55,252 nucleotides of DNA from Actinomycetes bacterium (GTDB lineage: Bacteria; Actinomycetota; Thermoleophilia; BMS3ABIN01): contig JAJYLW010000015.1 of assembly GCA_021787475.1 (NCBI GenBank), positions 1 through 55,252 of the forward strand. Direction: 5' to 3'. Made by a program: the position numbers and the translations under genes. Below the pieces are notes generated by a model. The model had not been told where the DNA came from. It saw only the letters and a program-made list of their open reading frames with translations, and ran no database searches. Positions 20,353-41,728 of this stretch are shown here, one piece after another (within the stretch, counting starts at the first letter, position 1; each line of letters opens with the position of its first letter).

Positions 20353-21656
20353 ATCACAAGACAGCCCCCGTCGAGCTGCGCGAGAAGGTTTCCCTTGACG
20401 AGGAGAAGTGCGGGGCGCTCTCCCGTCGCCTTCTTGACGGAGACGGCGCCCTTGAAGTTGTTCCCCTCTCGACCTGCAACCGCACCGAGGTTTATGTGGT
20501 GGCCTCGCGGCCGGAGGCGGGCCAGAAGGAGATCCTGGCGGCGCTGACGCAGATCGGCGGCATCCCGGCCGCCGAGCTGGAAGAATGCTCGTATTTTCAC
20601 GAGGGTGACAGGGCGGTGCGGCACCTTTACCGGGTGGCCGGCAGCCTTGACTCAATGGTGGTGGGCGAGGCCCAGATAATGGGGCAGATCAAGGACGCCT
20701 ACCGGCTGGCGCACAAGCAGGAGAGCACCAGCGTGCTCCTCAACCGGCTGTTCAGGCATGCGCTGGAGGTGGGCAAGTGCATCAGAACCGAGACGGCGAT
20801 TGGCGAGAATCCGGTTTCGGTGTCGTCGGTGGCCGTCGAGATGGCCAAAAAGGTGTTTGAGAATCTGGAGGGGAAGGTGGTGCTGCTGCTGGGCGCCGGC
20901 AAGATGAGCGAGCTGACCGCCACCCATCTACTCTCCCAGGGAATCGCCACTATCTTTGTCGGCAACCGCACCCTCAGCCGCGCTGAAGCGCTGGCGGACA
21001 AGTTCAACGGCAGGGCGATCCCCTATGACGACTTGCTTGACTATTTGCCTTTGGCTGATATCGTCATCAGCTCCACCGGCTCTCCCCATTACGTCCTCCG
21101 GAAAGGCGAGGTCGAGCGCGCCCTTCGCCGCCGCCACAACATGCCGATTTTCTTCATTGATATCGCGGTTCCGCGTGACATCGATCCCGGCGTCAACGAT
21201 GTCAACAACGCTTTCCTTTTTGATATCGACGACCTGAACGAGATGGCCCGCGCCAACGCCGTTGCCCGTAAAAAGGAGGCGGAGAAGGCGGAGAGGATCG
21301 TTGGCCAGGAAGTGGAGAATTTTAGCCAATGGCTGGCCGGCCTTGACGCAGTGCCGACGATCACGGCGCTGAGGGAGATGGCGGAGGCGGTCAAGCAGGC
21401 GGAGGTGGCAAAAGCGCTGGCACGCTTTGACGGCGATCTCTCGGAGAAGGACCGGAACCGCATTGAGACGATGGCAGCCGGCATCGTCAACAAGATCCTG
21501 CATGAGCCGACCGTGGAGCTGAAGCGGGTCGCGAACGAGCGCGGCGGCTACCTTTACGTTGAATCGATGCGGCGCCTGTTCAAGCTCAACGGTCACAAAA
21601 AAACGGAAACGGAAGCCGTCCCCGGGCGGCGCCAAGCGGAGAAAGATGAGCACTGA
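20328..21656 (+). CDS. hemA: Glutamyl-tRNA reductase HemA
   Basis: A 442-residue enzyme reducing glutamyl-tRNA to glutamate-1-semialdehyde, the first committed step of tetrapyrrole synthesis. The active-site cysteine is in PLSTCNRTEVY near residue 49, the signature GEAQIMGQIKDAY near 110, and the NADPH loop LLGAGKMSE near 188. A C-terminal dimerisation helix region is present. It overlaps the preceding dehydrogenase gene by 25 bases and hemC by 11, so all are one operon. The next enzymes HemL and HemB are not in the window. Confidence 0.95.
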   Translation: MHLAVLGINHKTAPVELREKVSLDEEKCGALSRRLLDGDGALEVVPLSTCNRTEVYVVASRPEAGQKEILAALTQIGGIPAAELEECSYFHEGDRAVRHLYRVAGSLDSMVVGEAQIMGQIKDAYRLAHKQESTSVLLNRLFRHALEVGKCIRTETAIGENPVSVSSVAVEMAKKVFENLEGKVVLLLGAGKMSELTATHLLSQGIATIFVGNRTLSRAEALADKFNGRAIPYDDLLDYLPLADIVISSTGSPHYVLRKGEVERALRRRHNMPIFFIDIAVPRDIDPGVNDVNNAFLFDIDDLNEMARANAVARKKEAEKAERIVGQEVENFSQWLAGLDAVPTITALREMAEAVKQAEVAKALARFDGDLSEKDRNRIETMAAGIVNKILHEPTVELKRVANERGGYLYVESMRRLFKLNGHKKTETEAVPGRRQAEKDEH

Positions 21657-22611
21657 CCGCGCCCGGGGCGTGGTGATTGGCACCCGCGGCAGTGAGCTGG
21701 CCATGTTTCAGGCGCGCCAGGTGGCCTGGACGCTGCAAAGAAACAGCATCGACCTCTCGGTCAAAATCAGGAAGATAACCACCTCCGGCGACAAGATTCT
21801 CGATTCCCCCCTGGCCCGGATCGGCGACAAGGGCCTCTTTGTCAAGGAGATTGAAACGGCATTACTCGAAGGCGAGATCGACCTGGCCGTCCACAGCGCT
21901 AAGGATCTGCCCACGGTCCTGCCCGACGGCCTGATAGTCGGCGCCTACGGCAGCCGCGAGGATCCCCGCGATGTTTTTGTCGGCAGCGGCCGCAGCCTGC
22001 GGGGGATTCCCGCCGGGGGCAGAGTCGGCACCAGCAGTCTCAGGCGTCGCTCGCAGTTGCTGTCGCTCAGGCCCGATCTGGAGATTGTTGACATAAGGGG
22101 GAATGTTGACACCAGGATCAGGAAGATAGCGGAGCAGGGGCTTAACGGCACCATCCTGGCGGCGGCAGGCGTCAAGAGACTTCAGAAGGAAGACCAGATC
22201 GCCTTTCATTTTTCGTTTGACGAGCTGCTGCCGGCGGTGGGGCAGGGCGTCATCGCCGTTGAGGTGCGCCGGGATGACAACCCAGTCCACCAGCTGATCG
22301 GCGTCCATAATGATGAGGATGCGGCCGCCTGCGTGCGCGCCGAGCGGGCGCTGATGCGGTGGCTGGAAGGGGGCTGCCAGGTGCCGATCGGCGCCCATGC
22401 CCGGACCCAGGGCGGCGCCCTGTTGCTGACGGCCTTCCTTGGCTCCCTGGACGGCGCCAGCGCCGTGCGCGACTCGATCGAGGGACCGGTCAGGGAGGCG
22501 GAGCGGCTGGGCGAGGCGCTGGCGGAGAGAATGCACGGCAGCGGCGGCGCCGAGATTCTGGCGGCTGTACGCGAAGCCCACGATGGCGAGGGTAGCGGCT
22601 ACTGGACGTAA
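21646..22611 (+). CDS. hemC: Porphobilinogen deaminase HemC
   Basis: A 321-residue hydroxymethylbilane synthase. GTRGSELAMFQA at the N-terminus, FVKEIETALLEGEIDLAVHS and the catalytic Asp region, the Arg-rich GTSSLRRRSQL and the cofactor-attachment Cys244 in EGGCQVPIGAH are all intact. The start ATG at 21646 overlaps the end of hemA by 11 bases and is fixed by the conserved VVIGTRGSELA; the longer frame upstream is inside hemA. It is the last gene of the plus-strand tetrapyrrole block. In many genomes hemB and hemL would follow; here the strand switches instead. Confidence 0.95.
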   Translation: MSTDRARGVVIGTRGSELAMFQARQVAWTLQRNSIDLSVKIRKITTSGDKILDSPLARIGDKGLFVKEIETALLEGEIDLAVHSAKDLPTVLPDGLIVGAYGSREDPRDVFVGSGRSLRGIPAGGRVGTSSLRRRSQLLSLRPDLEIVDIRGNVDTRIRKIAEQGLNGTILAAAGVKRLQKEDQIAFHFSFDELLPAVGQGVIAVEVRRDDNPVHQLIGVHNDEDAAACVRAERALMRWLEGGCQVPIGAHARTQGGALLLTAFLGSLDGASAVRDSIEGPVREAERLGEALAERMHGSGGAEILAAVREAHDGEGSGYWT

Positions 22612-22732: not shown

Positions 22733-22755
22733 GAGGCGACCCAGCGGGTCGCCTC
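22733..22755 (-). terminator. Perfect 10-bp hairpin between hemC and the minus-strand peptide gene
   Basis: GAGGCGACCC, loop AGC, GGGTCGCCTC forms a 10-bp perfect stem. On the minus strand it is followed after seven bases by a short T run (catttttg), so it can terminate the precursor-peptide transcript 29 bases after its stop. It may also stop hemC readthrough. Confidence 0.6.
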
Positions 22756-22783: not shown

Positions 22784-22906
22784 TTAAGGCGCCGGCGGCA
22801 CCGTAACACTGCAAGACCAGTTAGAGCACTCGAAAGTAAGCTCCTTCAGGTTGTCGTGCTTGGTCAGCACCGGCTTCTCGTAAAAATCCTTTGCCTGCTT
22901 GTTCAT
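22784..22906 (-). CDS. Orphan RiPP-like precursor peptide with YxxPxL leader
   Basis: A 40-residue peptide. The ATG at 22906 follows a very strong ribosome binding site (agggaggaaaggg). The leader contains YEKPVL, then Asp18 at the place of the usual Gly, then Thr24: Y-x2-P-x-L-x3-[G]-x5-T, which is the spacing recognised by PqqD-like RRE proteins in lasso-peptide systems. The segment after Thr24 is short and contains two cysteines five residues apart (CSNWSC) and a Pro-rich end (VTVPPAP). The region that would be the core starts with Glu and has no acidic residue at positions 7-9, so a classical lasso ring is unlikely. No modifying enzyme, protease or RRE is adjacent. It lies 91 bases downstream of the SLOG gene on the same strand. 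Calling it a RiPP precursor is inference. Confidence 0.6.
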   Translation of the reverse strand: MNKQAKDFYEKPVLTKHDNLKELTFECSNWSCSVTVPPAP

Positions 22907-22997: not shown

Positions 22998-23471
22998 TTA
23001 TAATTTGACAAGCGCCAGCCGGACAGCCTCCGCTGGCGTGGCGGCGGGCACAATTCCCCTGGGAATTTCCCCGTCCCGGCTTATCTCCCATCCGCCCAGC
23101 ATGATCACGGTGCGGCCGCATTTGAGCGCCAGCCCGATTTCTGACAGGGTGCCAAACTCGCCGCCTATGGCGATCGCCACATCGCCGCTGGCGGCGACCG
23201 CCAGATTGCGGGCGTGGCCGATGCCCGTCAGGATGCGCAGGTCGAGCCAGGAGTTGGCGCCGGCGGCGTCCAGTCCGGGGAGGATGCCGACGGTGGAACC
23301 GCCCTTGCTTTTGGCGCCGCGGCAAGCCGCCTCCATGACGCCGCCCATGCCGCCACAGACCAGCACCGCGCCGGCGCCGGCGATCAGGCGGCCGGTCTCT
23401 CTGGCCAGGCCGGCGGTGGCTTCATCGCAGTGGCTGGCACCTATGACTGAGATATATTTAACTTTAGACAC
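22998..23471 (-). CDS. SLOG/TIGR00725-family nucleotide-binding protein
   Basis: A 157-residue Rossmann-like protein. VSVIGAS-type start (ISVIGASHCDE), the loop LVCGGMGGVMEAACRGAKSKGG near residue 38 (quoted in two halves: LVCGGMGGVMEA and CRGAKSKGG) and AIGGEFGTLSEIGLAL near 102 place it with TIGR00725 and LOG/DprA-like SLOG proteins, which bind nucleotides or ribose derivatives. The LOG phosphoribohydrolase motif is only partly kept, so cytokinin-type activity is not claimed. It precedes the small peptide gene on the same strand. Confidence 0.8.
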   Translation of the reverse strand: MSKVKYISVIGASHCDEATAGLARETGRLIAGAGAVLVCGGMGGVMEAACRGAKSKGGSTVGILPGLDAAGANSWLDLRILTGIGHARNLAVAASGDVAIAIGGEFGTLSEIGLALKCGRTVIMLGGWEISRDGEIPRGIVPAATPAEAVRLALVKL

Positions 23472-27498: not shown

Positions 27499-29058
27499 AT
27501 GCGAGGGATAACCAACAACATGATGAAGGGTAAGTATATGCGAAAGATAGCTCTGGTAACGTTGATTGCGCTTCCGGTTGTTTTATTGCTGGCGTTTGCG
27601 ACCTCCGCATACGCACAGATCGACCCGTTAAGCCAGGTCGCCATCGGCGCGTATTCGACTAATAATCCGAACGGCGGCGTGCCTTCCGGATATTTAGACG
27701 GAAACGGCGACATCGCTCCGCACGGCAATTACAGCCTGGCGAATCCAAGCGCGGCTTATGCGCAGTATGGCAATACAAAGCCGACTGACTTCTGTCTCCA
27801 GTGCCACATGGTGCACGACGCCGAGGGCGACTACGCTCTCATGCGGGAGCAGACCGTGACGCAGACCTGCGCCACCTGCCACAACGTCTTTGGCCACAGC
27901 CCCACGGGGCAGTGGACGCGTCCCCGCCTGGTGAACTGGAACGAGGATCCTAACGAGGTCCAGCCGACTACCGCCATCGTGGGCGCCTACAAGAACGAGA
28001 CGGCAAATAACGGCGCCGGCCCGCAAAGCGAGCACGGCCTCGGAGTCATTCTGGATGGCAACGGCAATGTTGTTAACGGAGCCGAAGGCCGGGCCGGCGC
28101 GGATGACATCGCCGGCGAGTGCGATACCGACGCTTCCCGCGGCGGCACTTCCGACGGCGGCAACCCGACCAACTGCACCAACCTGCTGAAGGTGATCTCG
28201 CCGGCCAGCTACGCTGCCGGACTGACCAACTTCAGCGTTAACGCCGGTGGCCCAATCTACAGTGGCCAGGAGTCGAACCAGTTTGCGGCCACCAACGGCC
28301 TCTACTGCGCTTCCTGCCACTCGGTGCACGGCTCGGTCCAGGCCAACCCGAACACGATGACCTCTTACAAGAGCTGTTACATTGACAGCGAGGGCGTCTA
28401 CCGGGCGGTTGGGGCCGATACCCCGGCGCCGGCAGGCGCGACGCTGACCAACTGTCCGACGTCATCGCTGGGCAGCTTCGGCAAGCAGCTGGTGACTACG
28501 CAGGGGCTGAACAGCAGCACGACCGGCTACCCACATGTGGTGTTCCCGGACCGGCTGCTCTCCGACATGCCGAACCACTCGCTGTATCAGCCGATGAACA
28601 ACGAGGCGACGTCAAGTCATAACGGTGACGTTCAGAGCGCGACTTGGGACGGCACGAACAATACGTTCAAATGGCAGCCGCGTCCGGCGGAGACATACAA
28701 CGAGTTCTGCATGACCTGCCACACGATGAAGAACGACTCGGCGGCGGCAGATGTGGAGAACGCCAACGGCACCAACAGCGCCGATCCGTCTCAGCCGCAC
28801 AACCATCCGCCTCTCTGCACCTCCTGCCACGGAAACCCGGGCAATGGATCGTTCGGCCAACAGGGTAACGGCAATGGTTACGTCAACGACTTCCCGCACA
28901 GCAGTGGCAACGAGAAGTTCCTGACGCAAAACTCGGACAAGCTCTGTCTGGGTTGCCATTCGCCCGCAAACGGTCAGCCTGATGAAGCTGGTCAGTACGG
29001 TAACACCAATTCCTATGGTGGCGCCTACGACAACGGCGCAGGCAACCACCTGCCGTAA
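27499..29058 (+). CDS. Secreted hexaheme c-type cytochrome
   Basis: A 519-residue protein with a signal peptide (KIALVTLIALPVVLLLAFAT, then SAYA-Q cleavage) and six CxxCH heme sites: CLQCH, CATCH, CASCH, CMTCH, CTSCH and CLGCH. CxxCHxxH spacing at CLQCHMVH and CASCHSVH marks the doubled-CxxCH family and suggests bis-His ligation. The same six sites, in the same order and with shared linkers (YSLxRExTVTQ type, IYSGQ, SFGxQL, YNEFC, DFPHxS), recur at the C-terminus of the giant protein at 31633-35754. ATG at 27499 follows aaaggaggtg at slightly long spacing; ATG at 27538 (MRKIALVTL) follows gaaggg and gives a minimal signal peptide. It is the first gene of a set with a lipoprotein, a TPR protein and an NHL protein. 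NHL genes beside nanowire-type cytochromes are known in Geobacter, so a role in extracellular electron transfer is a reasonable inference. Confidence 0.88.
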   Translation: MRGITNNMMKGKYMRKIALVTLIALPVVLLLAFATSAYAQIDPLSQVAIGAYSTNNPNGGVPSGYLDGNGDIAPHGNYSLANPSAAYAQYGNTKPTDFCLQCHMVHDAEGDYALMREQTVTQTCATCHNVFGHSPTGQWTRPRLVNWNEDPNEVQPTTAIVGAYKNETANNGAGPQSEHGLGVILDGNGNVVNGAEGRAGADDIAGECDTDASRGGTSDGGNPTNCTNLLKVISPASYAAGLTNFSVNAGGPIYSGQESNQFAATNGLYCASCHSVHGSVQANPNTMTSYKSCYIDSEGVYRAVGADTPAPAGATLTNCPTSSLGSFGKQLVTTQGLNSSTTGYPHVVFPDRLLSDMPNHSLYQPMNNEATSSHNGDVQSATWDGTNNTFKWQPRPAETYNEFCMTCHTMKNDSAAADVENANGTNSADPSQPHNHPPLCTSCHGNPGNGSFGQQGNGNGYVNDFPHSSGNEKFLTQNSDKLCLGCHSPANGQPDEAGQYGNTNSYGGAYDNGAGNHLP

Positions 29059-31632: not shown

Positions 31633-34600
31633 ATGCTGGTCGTGAGGCACATCCGGAAGGCAGGTTATCTGAAGGTTGCTTTTGCCGGGCTGGCGTTTGC
31701 GCTGGTAATCTCGCTGGGGTTGTTCTTCGCCAATCGGGGCTCGGCCTCCACGACAATAGGCATCAGCAACAATTCCACCGGTGGTGACTGTACCACGGTC
31801 GGCGCCTGGGACGCCGCCACCGGGACCTGCACCCTGACCACCGACCTGACCTTCCAGGGAAATAACGGCTTCCAGATCTCGTCCAGCGGCATCACCCTGG
31901 ATGGAAACGGCCATTCCATCGCCGGCAGCAATCAGGCCGACGGCGTTGTCATCCAGGGCGTCACGGGCGTCACCGTCAAGAACCTGACCGTCCAGAGCTT
32001 TGACACCGGGGTTTACCTGAACGGGGCCAGCAGCGTCACGCTCACCGGCAACACCCTTGCCGGCAATGTTTCCTCCGGCGTCAACATTGTCTCCTCAAAC
32101 AGCAACACCGTCTACCACAACAATTTTATCGACAACGGCGTCCAGGCGCAGGCGAGCGGCTCCGGCAACGTCTTTAACCTGGCGTCGCCCCAGGGCGGCA
32201 ACTACTGGAGCGACTGGACTTCGCCCGACGCCGACGGCGACGGCTTTGTTGACATTCCCTACGCTTTTAGCGGCGGCCAGGATAACCTGCCCTTTACAAC
32301 ACAGAACGGCTGGGTTGACACGACGCCGCCGGTGGTGACAAACATTCAACCGTCCGCCAGCGTCGTCGTCAGCTCGGTCATCGTCAGCGCCAGCTACAAT
32401 GACTCCGGCCTCCACGCCAGCGGCGTCGATCCCACCTCTGTCACCGTTACCCTGGATGGAAACATGCTGCCCAATTGCAGCGCCACCGCCACCGACGTTC
32501 ACTGCCCGGCAAACAACCTCGGCGTCGGCCTGCACACGATCACGGTGACGGTAAGCGACATGGTCGGCAACTCCAGCGGCGCCACCAGCGGCGGCTTCAG
32601 CGTCAACGACATTCAAGCCCCCACCGTTTCCGCCGTTGCGCCGTCCGGGGCAATCACCACCAGCACCGCCACCATCTCCGCCAGTTACGTGGACCCGGCG
32701 CCCGCCAGCGGAATTAGTACATCCTCGGTTAACCTCAGCCTGGACGGTCAGGCGCTCAGCGGTTGCATGGTCACAACAACAAATGTAAGCTGCAATGTCT
32801 ACGGCCTCACAGTCGGGCCGCATGCAATCGGCGGCTCTGTCACCGACAACGCCGGCAACACCAGCTCAATTAACGGCAGCTTTAACGTCGGAGACGCGAC
32901 GCCGCCGGTGATAAGCTCCGTCCAGCCCTCGGGCAGCATCTCCACCAGCTCCGCCGCCATCAGCGTTTATTACAGCGACCCGGCGCCGGCCAGCGGGGTC
33001 AACACATCATCGGTTTCAGTGACGTTGGACGGCAGCCCGGTGAGCGGCTGCACGGTCGCGGCGTCGCACGCCAACTGCCCGGTTTACAATCTTGCCGTCG
33101 GCAGCCACGTCATCGGCGGCTTGGTATCGGATAATGCCGGCAACCAGACGGCCATTAGCGGCGGCTTCAGCGTCGTTGACAACGCCAAGCCGGTGATAAC
33201 CGCCGTGACGCCAACAGGCGATATTTATTCTTCCGCCGCCGGCATCACGGTAAATTATTACGATCCGGCGCCGGCCAGCGGCATCAATACCGCTGCCGTT
33301 GCCGTCAGCGTTGACGGGAAGGCCCTCAGCGGCTGCACCGTCACGGCTCAAAGCGCCAGCTGCAACGTCTCCGGCCTGGCGCTGGGCACGCATGCCATCT
33401 CCGGATCGGTGGCAGACAACGCCAGCAATACGACCACGATCTCAGGCAGCTTCAGCATCGTTGACAATATCAGGCCGGTCGCGACCAGCGTCGCTCCCGC
33501 CGGTCCCAACCATTACGGCACCTCTGCGGCCATCAGTGTGTACTATACGGATCCCGTCGGATCCGGCCCCAGCCCGGCGCCGGCCAGCGGCATCAACGCC
33601 TCATCGGTATCGGTCACCCTTGATGGAACGGCGCTCAGCGGCTGCACCGTCACCGCCACCAGCGCCAACTGCAATGTTTCCAACCTGGTGCAGGGCATGC
33701 ACTTGATCGGCGGACACGTTTCTGACAACGCCGGCAACGCCAGCATCATTTACGGCGCTTTTTTCATCGGCCGCTCCGGCGACACCACGCCGCCGCAGAT
33801 AACAATCGCCAGCATGCCGCCCGCCACGGCGGCGATTGACGTCTACTATTCGGACAGTGAAGCGGGCGGCGCCGGGATTGACACAAACTCGGTTGTGGTT
33901 ACGATCGACGGCGGCATCATCAGCTGCAGCGTTGGCGCCAGCCAGGCAAGCTGTCCGGTGGCACAGCAGTCACTGGGCTTGCATGAAGTTGACGCATACG
34001 CGGCCGACAATGCCGGCAACTGGCAAAAGGCGGCTGGCGCCTTTAACGTCACCGACAATGTGGCGCCGGTGATCAGCAACCTCCAGCCGGCGGGAACAAT
34101 CGGCGGCTCCAGCACGGTCATCTCGGCCGGGTTTAACGACCCGGCGCCCTCCAGCGGCATCGCCGCGGTATCGGTCTACATGGACGGCGCCGCCCTCAGC
34201 GCCTGCAATATTGACAAGAGCGCCGGGACGGTCAGCTGCCCAATTCAGGGGCTTACGCTTGGTTCTTCCCATAATTTCACCGTCAACGTCAGCGACAACG
34301 CCAGCAACGCCAGCACCGCCTCCGGCTCCTTTACCGTCGAGGACCTGACGACGCCGGTGATCACCGGCATCTCCCCGGCAGGGGCGGTTAACCCGGGAAA
34401 CATCGTCGTCAGCGCCGGTTATTACGATCCCAACGATCCGGCTCACATCTCCAGCGGCATTGACGTATCGTCAGTGGCTGTGCAGTTGGACGGCAAGCTG
34501 CTGCTTGGCTGCCATGTGACGACATCCAGCGTCGCCTGTCCCGCATACGATCTGGCGCCGGGCACGTCGCCACATGCAATCGGCGTTACGGTCAAGGACG

Positions 34601-35754
34601 ACGCCGGCAACTCCGCCAGCATGAGCGGCAGCTTCACCGTACAGGACACGCTGCCGCCCGTTATCACCAGCATCAGCCCGTCCGGAACGGTCAGCCAGGC
34701 GTCCATACCTTCTCCCTGGAACGTGGAGATTGCCTATGAGGACGCCGGCTCGGGGGTTAATGCCTCAAGCATGGTGATAAACCTGGACGGCCAGAAGGTG
34801 GCCGGCTGCACTATCAGCGCCAGCGCCGCCAACTGCCCGATCCCGGCCGCCAACGAGGGAATGGGATTGCACTCCATCAGCGGTTACCTGAGCGACAACG
34901 CCGGCAACCAGGCCCAGATCGTCGGCAACTTCATGATCACGCCGGCGCTGAGCACTGTCTCGCCTCACGGCGGCTACAGCTCCACCACAAATGACTGCAA
35001 CCTCTGTCATGAGATGCACGGGGCCGACAGCGATTACAGTCTTGTCCGGGAGTCAACGGTGACCCAGGTTTGCGGCACCTGTCACGGACTCTTCGGCGCC
35101 CCGGTGGGCAACAATACCTGGACGCCGCCGCCGCCGTCATTCAGCAGCAACAGCAGCCTCGGCCAGGCGACCGTCTCCCAGTATGCCGTCTATACCGTTG
35201 ACATGTCGAAGATGACGCCGAGCCAGATGGACGCCGTTCCCGGGCACAGCCTCGGGGTAATGTACGGCGGCACGGTCGTTCGCAACAGCAACAGCATTCC
35301 CGACGGCAGCGGCCAGCTGCAGGTCATCTCTGACAGCAACTCCATTTACAGCGGCCAGCCGGCAACCGATTTTGAGGCGCTCCAGGGGTTGAGCTGCGTC
35401 TCCTGCCATACCCCGCATGGATCAACTGATATAACCCAGAGTTTCGGCAACCAGCTGACCGACAACGGTTTCAAGCCGGTGACGGCGAGCATGATGCTGA
35501 CGAATCGGCCGAATCATATCAATACGCCGGTGAAAAGCTATAACGAGTTCTGTGAAGCTTGCCATAACCTGGTAGGAACCGCCAGCGACAGCAACCCGAT
35601 TCACAAGCACCTGCCTCTGTGCGTCTCCTGCCATGGCGACCCCAGCAACGGTGCTTCCCGGGACTTTCCCCACACCAGCCCCAACGCCGATCTGCTTATC
35701 ACAGATACGGCCAACCTGTGTTCGCAGTGCCACGACCCGGCAACGCTGCTTTAA
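31633..35754 (+). CDS. Giant surface protein: NosD-like beta-helix, nine Ig-like repeats, C-terminal hexaheme cytochrome
   Basis: A 1373-residue exported protein. Residues 14-36 are a signal or anchor segment (FAGLAFALVISLGLFFA). Residues about 37-226 are a NosD-like right-handed beta-helix (GITLDGNGHSIAG, then GGNYWSDWTSPDADGDG). Residues about 227-1105 are nine Ig-like repeats of about 95 residues, most starting PPVI-type and ending SDNAGN...GSFSV; most have two cysteines about a dozen residues apart (SGC...C), suggesting one disulfide per domain. Residues about 1106-1373 carry six heme sites (CNLCH, CGTCH, CVSCH, CEACH, CVSCH, CSQCH), collinear with the separate cytochrome at 27499-29058. 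No LPXTG or C-terminal membrane anchor is seen. The layout reads as a long stalk holding a redox tip away from the cell. ATG at 31633 follows ctaaggg. Confidence 0.85.
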   Translation: MLVVRHIRKAGYLKVAFAGLAFALVISLGLFFANRGSASTTIGISNNSTGGDCTTVGAWDAATGTCTLTTDLTFQGNNGFQISSSGITLDGNGHSIAGSNQADGVVIQGVTGVTVKNLTVQSFDTGVYLNGASSVTLTGNTLAGNVSSGVNIVSSNSNTVYHNNFIDNGVQAQASGSGNVFNLASPQGGNYWSDWTSPDADGDGFVDIPYAFSGGQDNLPFTTQNGWVDTTPPVVTNIQPSASVVVSSVIVSASYNDSGLHASGVDPTSVTVTLDGNMLPNCSATATDVHCPANNLGVGLHTITVTVSDMVGNSSGATSGGFSVNDIQAPTVSAVAPSGAITTSTATISASYVDPAPASGISTSSVNLSLDGQALSGCMVTTTNVSCNVYGLTVGPHAIGGSVTDNAGNTSSINGSFNVGDATPPVISSVQPSGSISTSSAAISVYYSDPAPASGVNTSSVSVTLDGSPVSGCTVAASHANCPVYNLAVGSHVIGGLVSDNAGNQTAISGGFSVVDNAKPVITAVTPTGDIYSSAAGITVNYYDPAPASGINTAAVAVSVDGKALSGCTVTAQSASCNVSGLALGTHAISGSVADNASNTTTISGSFSIVDNIRPVATSVAPAGPNHYGTSAAISVYYTDPVGSGPSPAPASGINASSVSVTLDGTALSGCTVTATSANCNVSNLVQGMHLIGGHVSDNAGNASIIYGAFFIGRSGDTTPPQITIASMPPATAAIDVYYSDSEAGGAGIDTNSVVVTIDGGIISCSVGASQASCPVAQQSLGLHEVDAYAADNAGNWQKAAGAFNVTDNVAPVISNLQPAGTIGGSSTVISAGFNDPAPSSGIAAVSVYMDGAALSACNIDKSAGTVSCPIQGLTLGSSHNFTVNVSDNASNASTASGSFTVEDLTTPVITGISPAGAVNPGNIVVSAGYYDPNDPAHISSGIDVSSVAVQLDGKLLLGCHVTTSSVACPAYDLAPGTSPHAIGVTVKDDAGNSASMSGSFTVQDTLPPVITSISPSGTVSQASIPSPWNVEIAYEDAGSGVNASSMVINLDGQKVAGCTISASAANCPIPAANEGMGLHSISGYLSDNAGNQAQIVGNFMITPALSTVSPHGGYSSTTNDCNLCHEMHGADSDYSLVRESTVTQVCGTCHGLFGAPVGNNTWTPPPPSFSSNSSLGQATVSQYAVYTVDMSKMTPSQMDAVPGHSLGVMYGGTVVRNSNSIPDGSGQLQVISDSNSIYSGQPATDFEALQGLSCVSCHTPHGSTDITQSFGNQLTDNGFKPVTASMMLTNRPNHINTPVKSYNEFCEACHNLVGTASDSNPIHKHLPLCVSCHGDPSNGASRDFPHTSPNADLLITDTANLCSQCHDPATLL

Positions 35755-41632: not shown

Positions 41633-41728
41633 TGGCGGGAAGGCGTAGGAATCGAACCTACCAATGACGGGGTTACCGCCACCTACCGGTTTTGAAGACC
41701 GGCTGGGCCACCAGACCCCTGCCCTCCC
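41633..41728 (-). tRNA. selC: tRNA-Sec (anticodon UCA)
   Basis: A 96-base tRNA gene with encoded CCA. The acceptor stem GGGAGGGC pairs with GCCTTCCC over 8 bp, and the T stem GTAGG/CCTAC has 5 bp, giving the 13-bp acceptor-T arm of bacterial tRNA-Sec. The anticodon stem CCGGT/ACCGG holds the loop CTTCAAA with anticodon TCA at 41693-41695. A long variable arm follows. It lies 87 bases after the selB stop on the same strand, completing a selA-selB-selC set. Confidence 0.95.

Follow-up and report, generated by a model that had tools for sequence, protein, structure and literature searches.

The short gene at positions 22784-22906 (minus strand) of the window, by which we mean the complete stretch of 55,252 nucleotides analysed here, belongs to a multi-copy peptide system restricted to one bacterial family, and most copies of this peptide are operon-like partners of secreted proteins which have one C-terminal Ig-like domain (CTD) in common. 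These statements on the gene family and its pairing are made with very high confidence. The best explanation of the arrangement, to which we assign a probability of about 0.5, is that the matured peptide may act as a donor strand for the surface proteins. The more extended proposal, that lasso-type leader machinery devoid of a cyclase would make this separately encoded strand and that a lipoprotein carrying the same strand would tether the surface proteins, is a possible one that we hold more tentatively.

The gene consists of 40 codons plus stop (MNKQAKDFYEKPVLTKHDNLKELTFECSNWSCSVTVPPAP, read from 22906 to 22784), divided into a leader of 25 codons (22832-22906) and a core of 15 codons, ECSNWSCSVTVPPAP (22787-22831). 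It is preceded by a strong ribosome binding site, AAGGGAGG (22920-22913, minus strand), and strong sites of this purine-rich kind are maintained before the start codons of its orthologues. A GC-rich terminator hairpin (22733-22755, stem listed for the plus strand, T-run read from the minus strand) is common to the peptide gene and the convergent hemC gene (21559-22611, plus strand; Pfam Porphobil_deam), and hairpin plus T-run are present in most orthologous copies. Directly upstream, with its stop codon 91 bp before the peptide start codon, lies a SLOG-cluster-4 gene on the same strand (22998-23471, minus strand; Pfam LDcluster4), which is a conserved neighbour in most orthologous loci. Synteny identifies the same copy in about 15 loci, before convergent hemC-hemA and mostly behind a helicase and the SLOG gene. 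Codon comparison of the window sequence with two orthologues yielded dN/dS values of 0.089/0.677 and 0.108/0.814 (ratio about 0.13), so the syntenic orthologues are under purifying selection. Because of this selection and of some ten paralogues in the same genome, the gene stands far beyond chance, which bears out the original prediction of a real gene with ribosome binding site and terminator. The window copy is thus an old, maintained member of the family, though one without a paired CTD gene. No Rfam match indicated a structured RNA at the locus, and identity with the Ogr/Delta zinc finger (PF04606) was rejected at 18.6 bits vs. a gathering cut-off of 26.3; the NCBIfam model lasso_leader_L3 matches the ORF below its cut-off (12.1 vs. 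19 bits). Elsewhere in the window are a selenocysteine tRNA gene (41637-41728, minus strand) and genes for large secreted multihaem proteins (31633-35754 and 27499-29058), the first of which has a beta-helix together with Ig-like repeats and CXXCH motifs.

The peptide had been taken for an orphan, a label that does not hold: about 11 leader-bearing copies (the window copy and ten more) are dispersed over separate contigs of this 1.84 Mb genome. A search of relatives for the same leader with a conserved core, as proposed with the original prediction, found homologues in every family member, since all 19 genomes of the family, including the source genome, contain 4 to 12 copies each. No copies were present in the 41 genomes of other families among the 60 genomes of the first search. 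When 396 genomes sampled from the phylum were searched, those of other families gave short matches covering mainly the leader. A wider scan over 84,980 species genomes yielded 76 distinct loci, every one of them in an assembly with the label Thermoleophilia, Gaiellales, Actinomycetes or Actinobacteria or in one of unclassified bacteria such as BMS3Abin01. The core was not found outside the family in any of these searches.

Several further sequences were seen around this family. Four genomes of another family of the same phylum (G103, G165, G380 and G405, family f12) show short leader matches, some of them in tandem. The source genome itself encodes two leader-bearing ORFs with different cores, DDVGWGLSSCGGDDDCGDD (L011:7543-7671, contig C13) and VHSYWNCSINGPDVHAGGPCDHDNPHGHN (L009:7596-7724, contig C33), the latter behind a GH5-like gene which has an internal CTD match. 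Three contig ends of this genome (C10:1, C22:19504 and C27:1, in loci L005, L010 and L007, respectively) fall inside near-identical peptide copies adjoining beta-helix CTD genes; collapsed tandem duplications have probably broken the assembly at these points.

A view on the 92 distinct complete reading frames shows that 89 fit the common pattern, and these form the precursor set. The lasso-type spacing of the leader (Y-17, P-14, L-12, T-2) is exact over the set, with Y(-17) present in 85, L(-12) in 87, T(-2) in 88 and F or R(-1) in 86 precursors. The window leader carries these residues as Y9, P12, L14 and T24, if the predicted B2 cleavage occurs after Phe25, which agrees with the earlier view that its Y-x2-P-x-L-x9-T spacing suits recognition by an RRE, and the spacing equals that of known lasso precursors (PMC10368454). 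The core follows the consensus E-C-x-x-W-[QS]-C-S-V-x-V-P-P-x-P, in which W5 and S8 are invariant (89/89) and C2, C7, V9, V11 and P12 are almost so (87, 88, 87, 87 and 88 precursors, respectively). None of the 89 precursors has an acidic residue (Asp or Glu) at core positions 7-9, and no asparagine synthetase corresponding to the lasso C protein was found in the 98.7% complete genome, whose sole PF00733 match is QueC. Therefore the product is not a lasso peptide, as had been anticipated from the core of the window copy. Of the hallmarks of RiPPs in general, a precursor with a leader and an encoded RRE and protease are present.

The enzymes lie elsewhere in the genome, consistent with the earlier remark that no maturation enzyme is adjacent. 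The proposed genome search located RRE and B2 genes in trans, on contig C7, where they overlap with the gene for an HprK-like kinase in one operon. The B2 protein of this genome scores above the cut-off of the NCBIfam lasso B2 model and the RRE above that of Pfam, while the HprK-like proteins remain below the NCBIfam cut-offs; the catalytic motifs are retained in the kinase (H..G.SGSGKST..DD) and in B2 (the Cys, and the His of GHSW). PqqD/RRE genes are present in all 19 family genomes (above the cut-off in 18) and B2-type proteases in 17 (above the cut-off in 16). Processing without cyclisation is plausible, because PadeB1 and PadeB2 cleave a leader without a C protein (PMC5067487) and B1 assists the HprK-like kinase BsfK in phosphorylating a core Ser (PMC10368454). 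By analogy with these systems, we infer with fairly high confidence that the precursor is processed by cyclase-free machinery. Its core would probably carry a phosphoserine.

A thioether-linked product, as had also been considered, is not indicated: the one RRE-linked radical SAM gene found goes with precursors of its own, of another kind, in relatives, and in the source genome it has suffered an internal deletion. No radical SAM/SPASM maturase stands beside the B1/B2 operon of this genome, which has 25 further radical SAM matches besides the RRE-linked one. The latter belongs to a second RRE locus (L162:8249-9984, contig C19 of the source genome; also L174, L175 and L176), with genes for a CTD protein, a signal-peptidase-like protein, a ScmC-like HprK, a radical SAM/SPASM protein and PqqD. 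In L174 and L176 it includes small precursor-like ORFs with a KxYxAPxL leader and an AYAC core start; in the source genome the HprK-like gene also contains stops. This locus resembles the SynChlorMet-type cassette (NCBIfam ScmC/D/E/F models) in having HprK-like and PqqD-like proteins, and in relatives it matches the ScmC, ScmD and ScmE models, all below the cut-offs. It differs from the system described here by its radical SAM genes and other precursors, is decayed in the source genome, and is unlinked to the peptide family.

The association with surface proteins is invisible from the window, because the window copy is one of the unpaired ones. Upstream sequence of 500 bp or more is available for 86 copies, of which 62 start 5-190 bp behind the stop codon of a co-oriented CTD gene; in all except one of these the distance does not exceed 92 bp. 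With 2,000 random placements the number of such pairs averaged 1.07 and never exceeded 7. When all copies are counted, 64 of 98 are paired, and among the 88 copies that do not lie at contig ends, 24 lack an adjacent CTD gene. The CTD comprises about 105 residues, reaches no Pfam family above the cut-off and forms the C-terminus of secreted proteins that are otherwise unrelated, such as rhodanese, beta-helix, multihaem cytochrome and GH5-like proteins. Small proteins of some 160 residues with a CTD only are encoded at L118, L122 and L134. It occurs 11-38 times per family genome, outnumbering the peptides by about 2:1, and was found in none of the 21 genomes searched outside the family. A disulfide between CTD and peptide was discarded, as many paired CTDs have no Cys near the C-terminal end, and so was an in-cell read-through of the stop codon producing a CTD-peptide fusion, as only about one third of the pairs are in frame, as expected by chance. 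Near the peptide loci, other secreted proteins carry a second recurrent C-terminal motif of the FPGKMGGPVAVSATGNV...RVL type (L009:6614-7336, L017:2956-3174 and L018:9637-11157).

One kind of locus adds a further component, being composed of genes for a CTD protein, the peptide, a lipoprotein of about 200 residues and an HprK-like protein, in that order. Sixteen of the 19 family genomes encode the lipoprotein, usually in single copy. It shows a lipobox (recognized by eye), a Gly/Pro-rich linker and a tail of the form I-x-I-x-V-P-x-x-P (type GGWxSGGIxIxVPPAP). With a profile of the peptide tail, such lipoproteins take the first nine ranks among 2,192 ORF C-termini. Core position 8 is Ser in every peptide and variable in the lipoprotein tail, which suggests a role of this residue specific to the peptide, such as phosphorylation.

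Structure prediction offers a possible reason for the shared tail. The CTD alone is modelled as an Ig-like sandwich (pLDDT 92.5), whose nearest folds are adaptin-ear and ApaG-like ones (Z of about 10, a common fold). A fusion was modelled in one AlphaFold2 run from a natural in-frame CTD-peptide pair of this genome, with the stop codon read as Gly, the resulting read-through chain being artificial and a modelling device only. Most of its CTD reached pLDDT values of 94-98, and its linker and leader values of 54-80; the core, at 86-92, forms a strand at S-C-S-V-T. Alignments of the fusion to the same folds gain about 5-11 residues and reach their last strand, as compared for two related CTDs: the alignment to 1gyu extends from 712-810 (CTD alone) to 712-822 (fusion), that to 1xvs from 5-113 to 5-124. 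Because of this extension to the last strand of the adaptin-ear and ApaG-like folds, the model suggests that the CTD falls short of this strand and that the core supplies it, with the limit that in a single native-core run a tethered tail could occupy the free edge by default.

A scheme can be drawn up from these elements. In the cytoplasm, the RRE (B1) would bind the leader, the HprK-like kinase would probably phosphorylate the invariant Ser8 of the core, and the B2 protease would cut after Thr(-2)-Phe(-1). The product would be a peptide of about 15-18 residues, either linear or closed by a C2-C7 disulfide. This peptide would leave the cell, although no exporter for it was identified. Outside, the strand C-S-V-x-V-P is predicted to complete the CTD, an Ig-like sandwich without its last strand, by donor-strand complementation. 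The lipoprotein is predicted to offer the same strand on its Gly/Pro-rich linker and could tether CTD proteins to the membrane, while the window copy may supply its peptide in trans to CTD proteins without a peptide gene of their own.

Alternatively, the matured and perhaps phosphorylated peptide may be a free secreted signal or natural product of a cyclase-free RiPP pathway, its adjacency to surface-protein genes reflecting mere co-expression. The lasso-biosynthesis type of leader, RRE, kinase and B2 would fit such a product, as would the existence of unpaired copies like that of the window, but we regard it as unlikely, since one and the same domain of otherwise unrelated proteins accompanies 62 of 86 copies, the core barely varies over 89 precursors, unlike competing antimicrobials, the lipoprotein has the same tail, and CTD and peptide have one common taxonomic range.

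Still less probable is that the tails of peptide (VPPxP), lipoprotein (VPxxP) and CTD (YTYP) represent a common C-terminal sorting or processing signal, e.g. for the sortase of the family. All three end in alternating hydrophobic residues followed by P-x-P, and a sortase gene is present in 19 of 19 family genomes, but behind the tails neither an LPxTG-like motif nor a membrane segment was observed, the conserved strand part would be superfluous in a pure tail signal, and the peptide is predicted to fill the strand position. Finally, the place of the window copy beside hemC-hemA, which is kept over the family, and the multihaem cytochrome among the partner CTD proteins might point to a particular function of this copy in the biogenesis of haem or cytochrome c. 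This is very improbable, given that the window core is the same as in other copies, that hemC is convergent and not co-transcribed, and that most paired partners examined are not cytochromes.

The enzymes of the system are of a known kind, while their arrangement matches no system found in the libraries or the open-access literature searched, and no description of a pairing between peptide and surface domain was found in that literature. The novelty thus rests on the dispersed leader peptides, mostly one per surface-protein gene, together with a lipoprotein of the same tail. Lasso systems with split B1/B2 and HprK-like kinase (paeninodin, PMC5067487; BsfA/BsfK, PMC10368454) are alike in leader motif, spacing and Thr(-2), as well as in PqqD-like B1, B2 protease and kinase. 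They differ in having a C cyclase and a ring acceptor at positions 7-9, whereas here the enzymes are encoded away from about 11 dispersed precursors, the core is near-invariant and the peptide is paired with a surface domain. A foreign strand that completes an incomplete Ig-like fold, as predicted here, is known from chaperone-usher pili (PMC4654587) and archaeal threads (PMC9715654). In those systems a chaperone or the next subunit donates the strand; here the donor would be a peptide that has its own gene and an RRE leader.

Completion by a donor strand is directly testable by mixing a synthetic core peptide (ECPNWQCSVTVPPPPA) with the CTD. If true, a mini-gene would supply the last strand of a domain on 11-38 proteins per genome, including rhodaneses, beta-helix proteins, a multihaem cytochrome and a glycosidase. 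Machinery for natural-product peptides would then have been recruited for assembling proteins at the cell surface, and this would offer one explanation for the occurrence of lasso-type leaders, RREs and B2 proteases in the absence of a cyclase.
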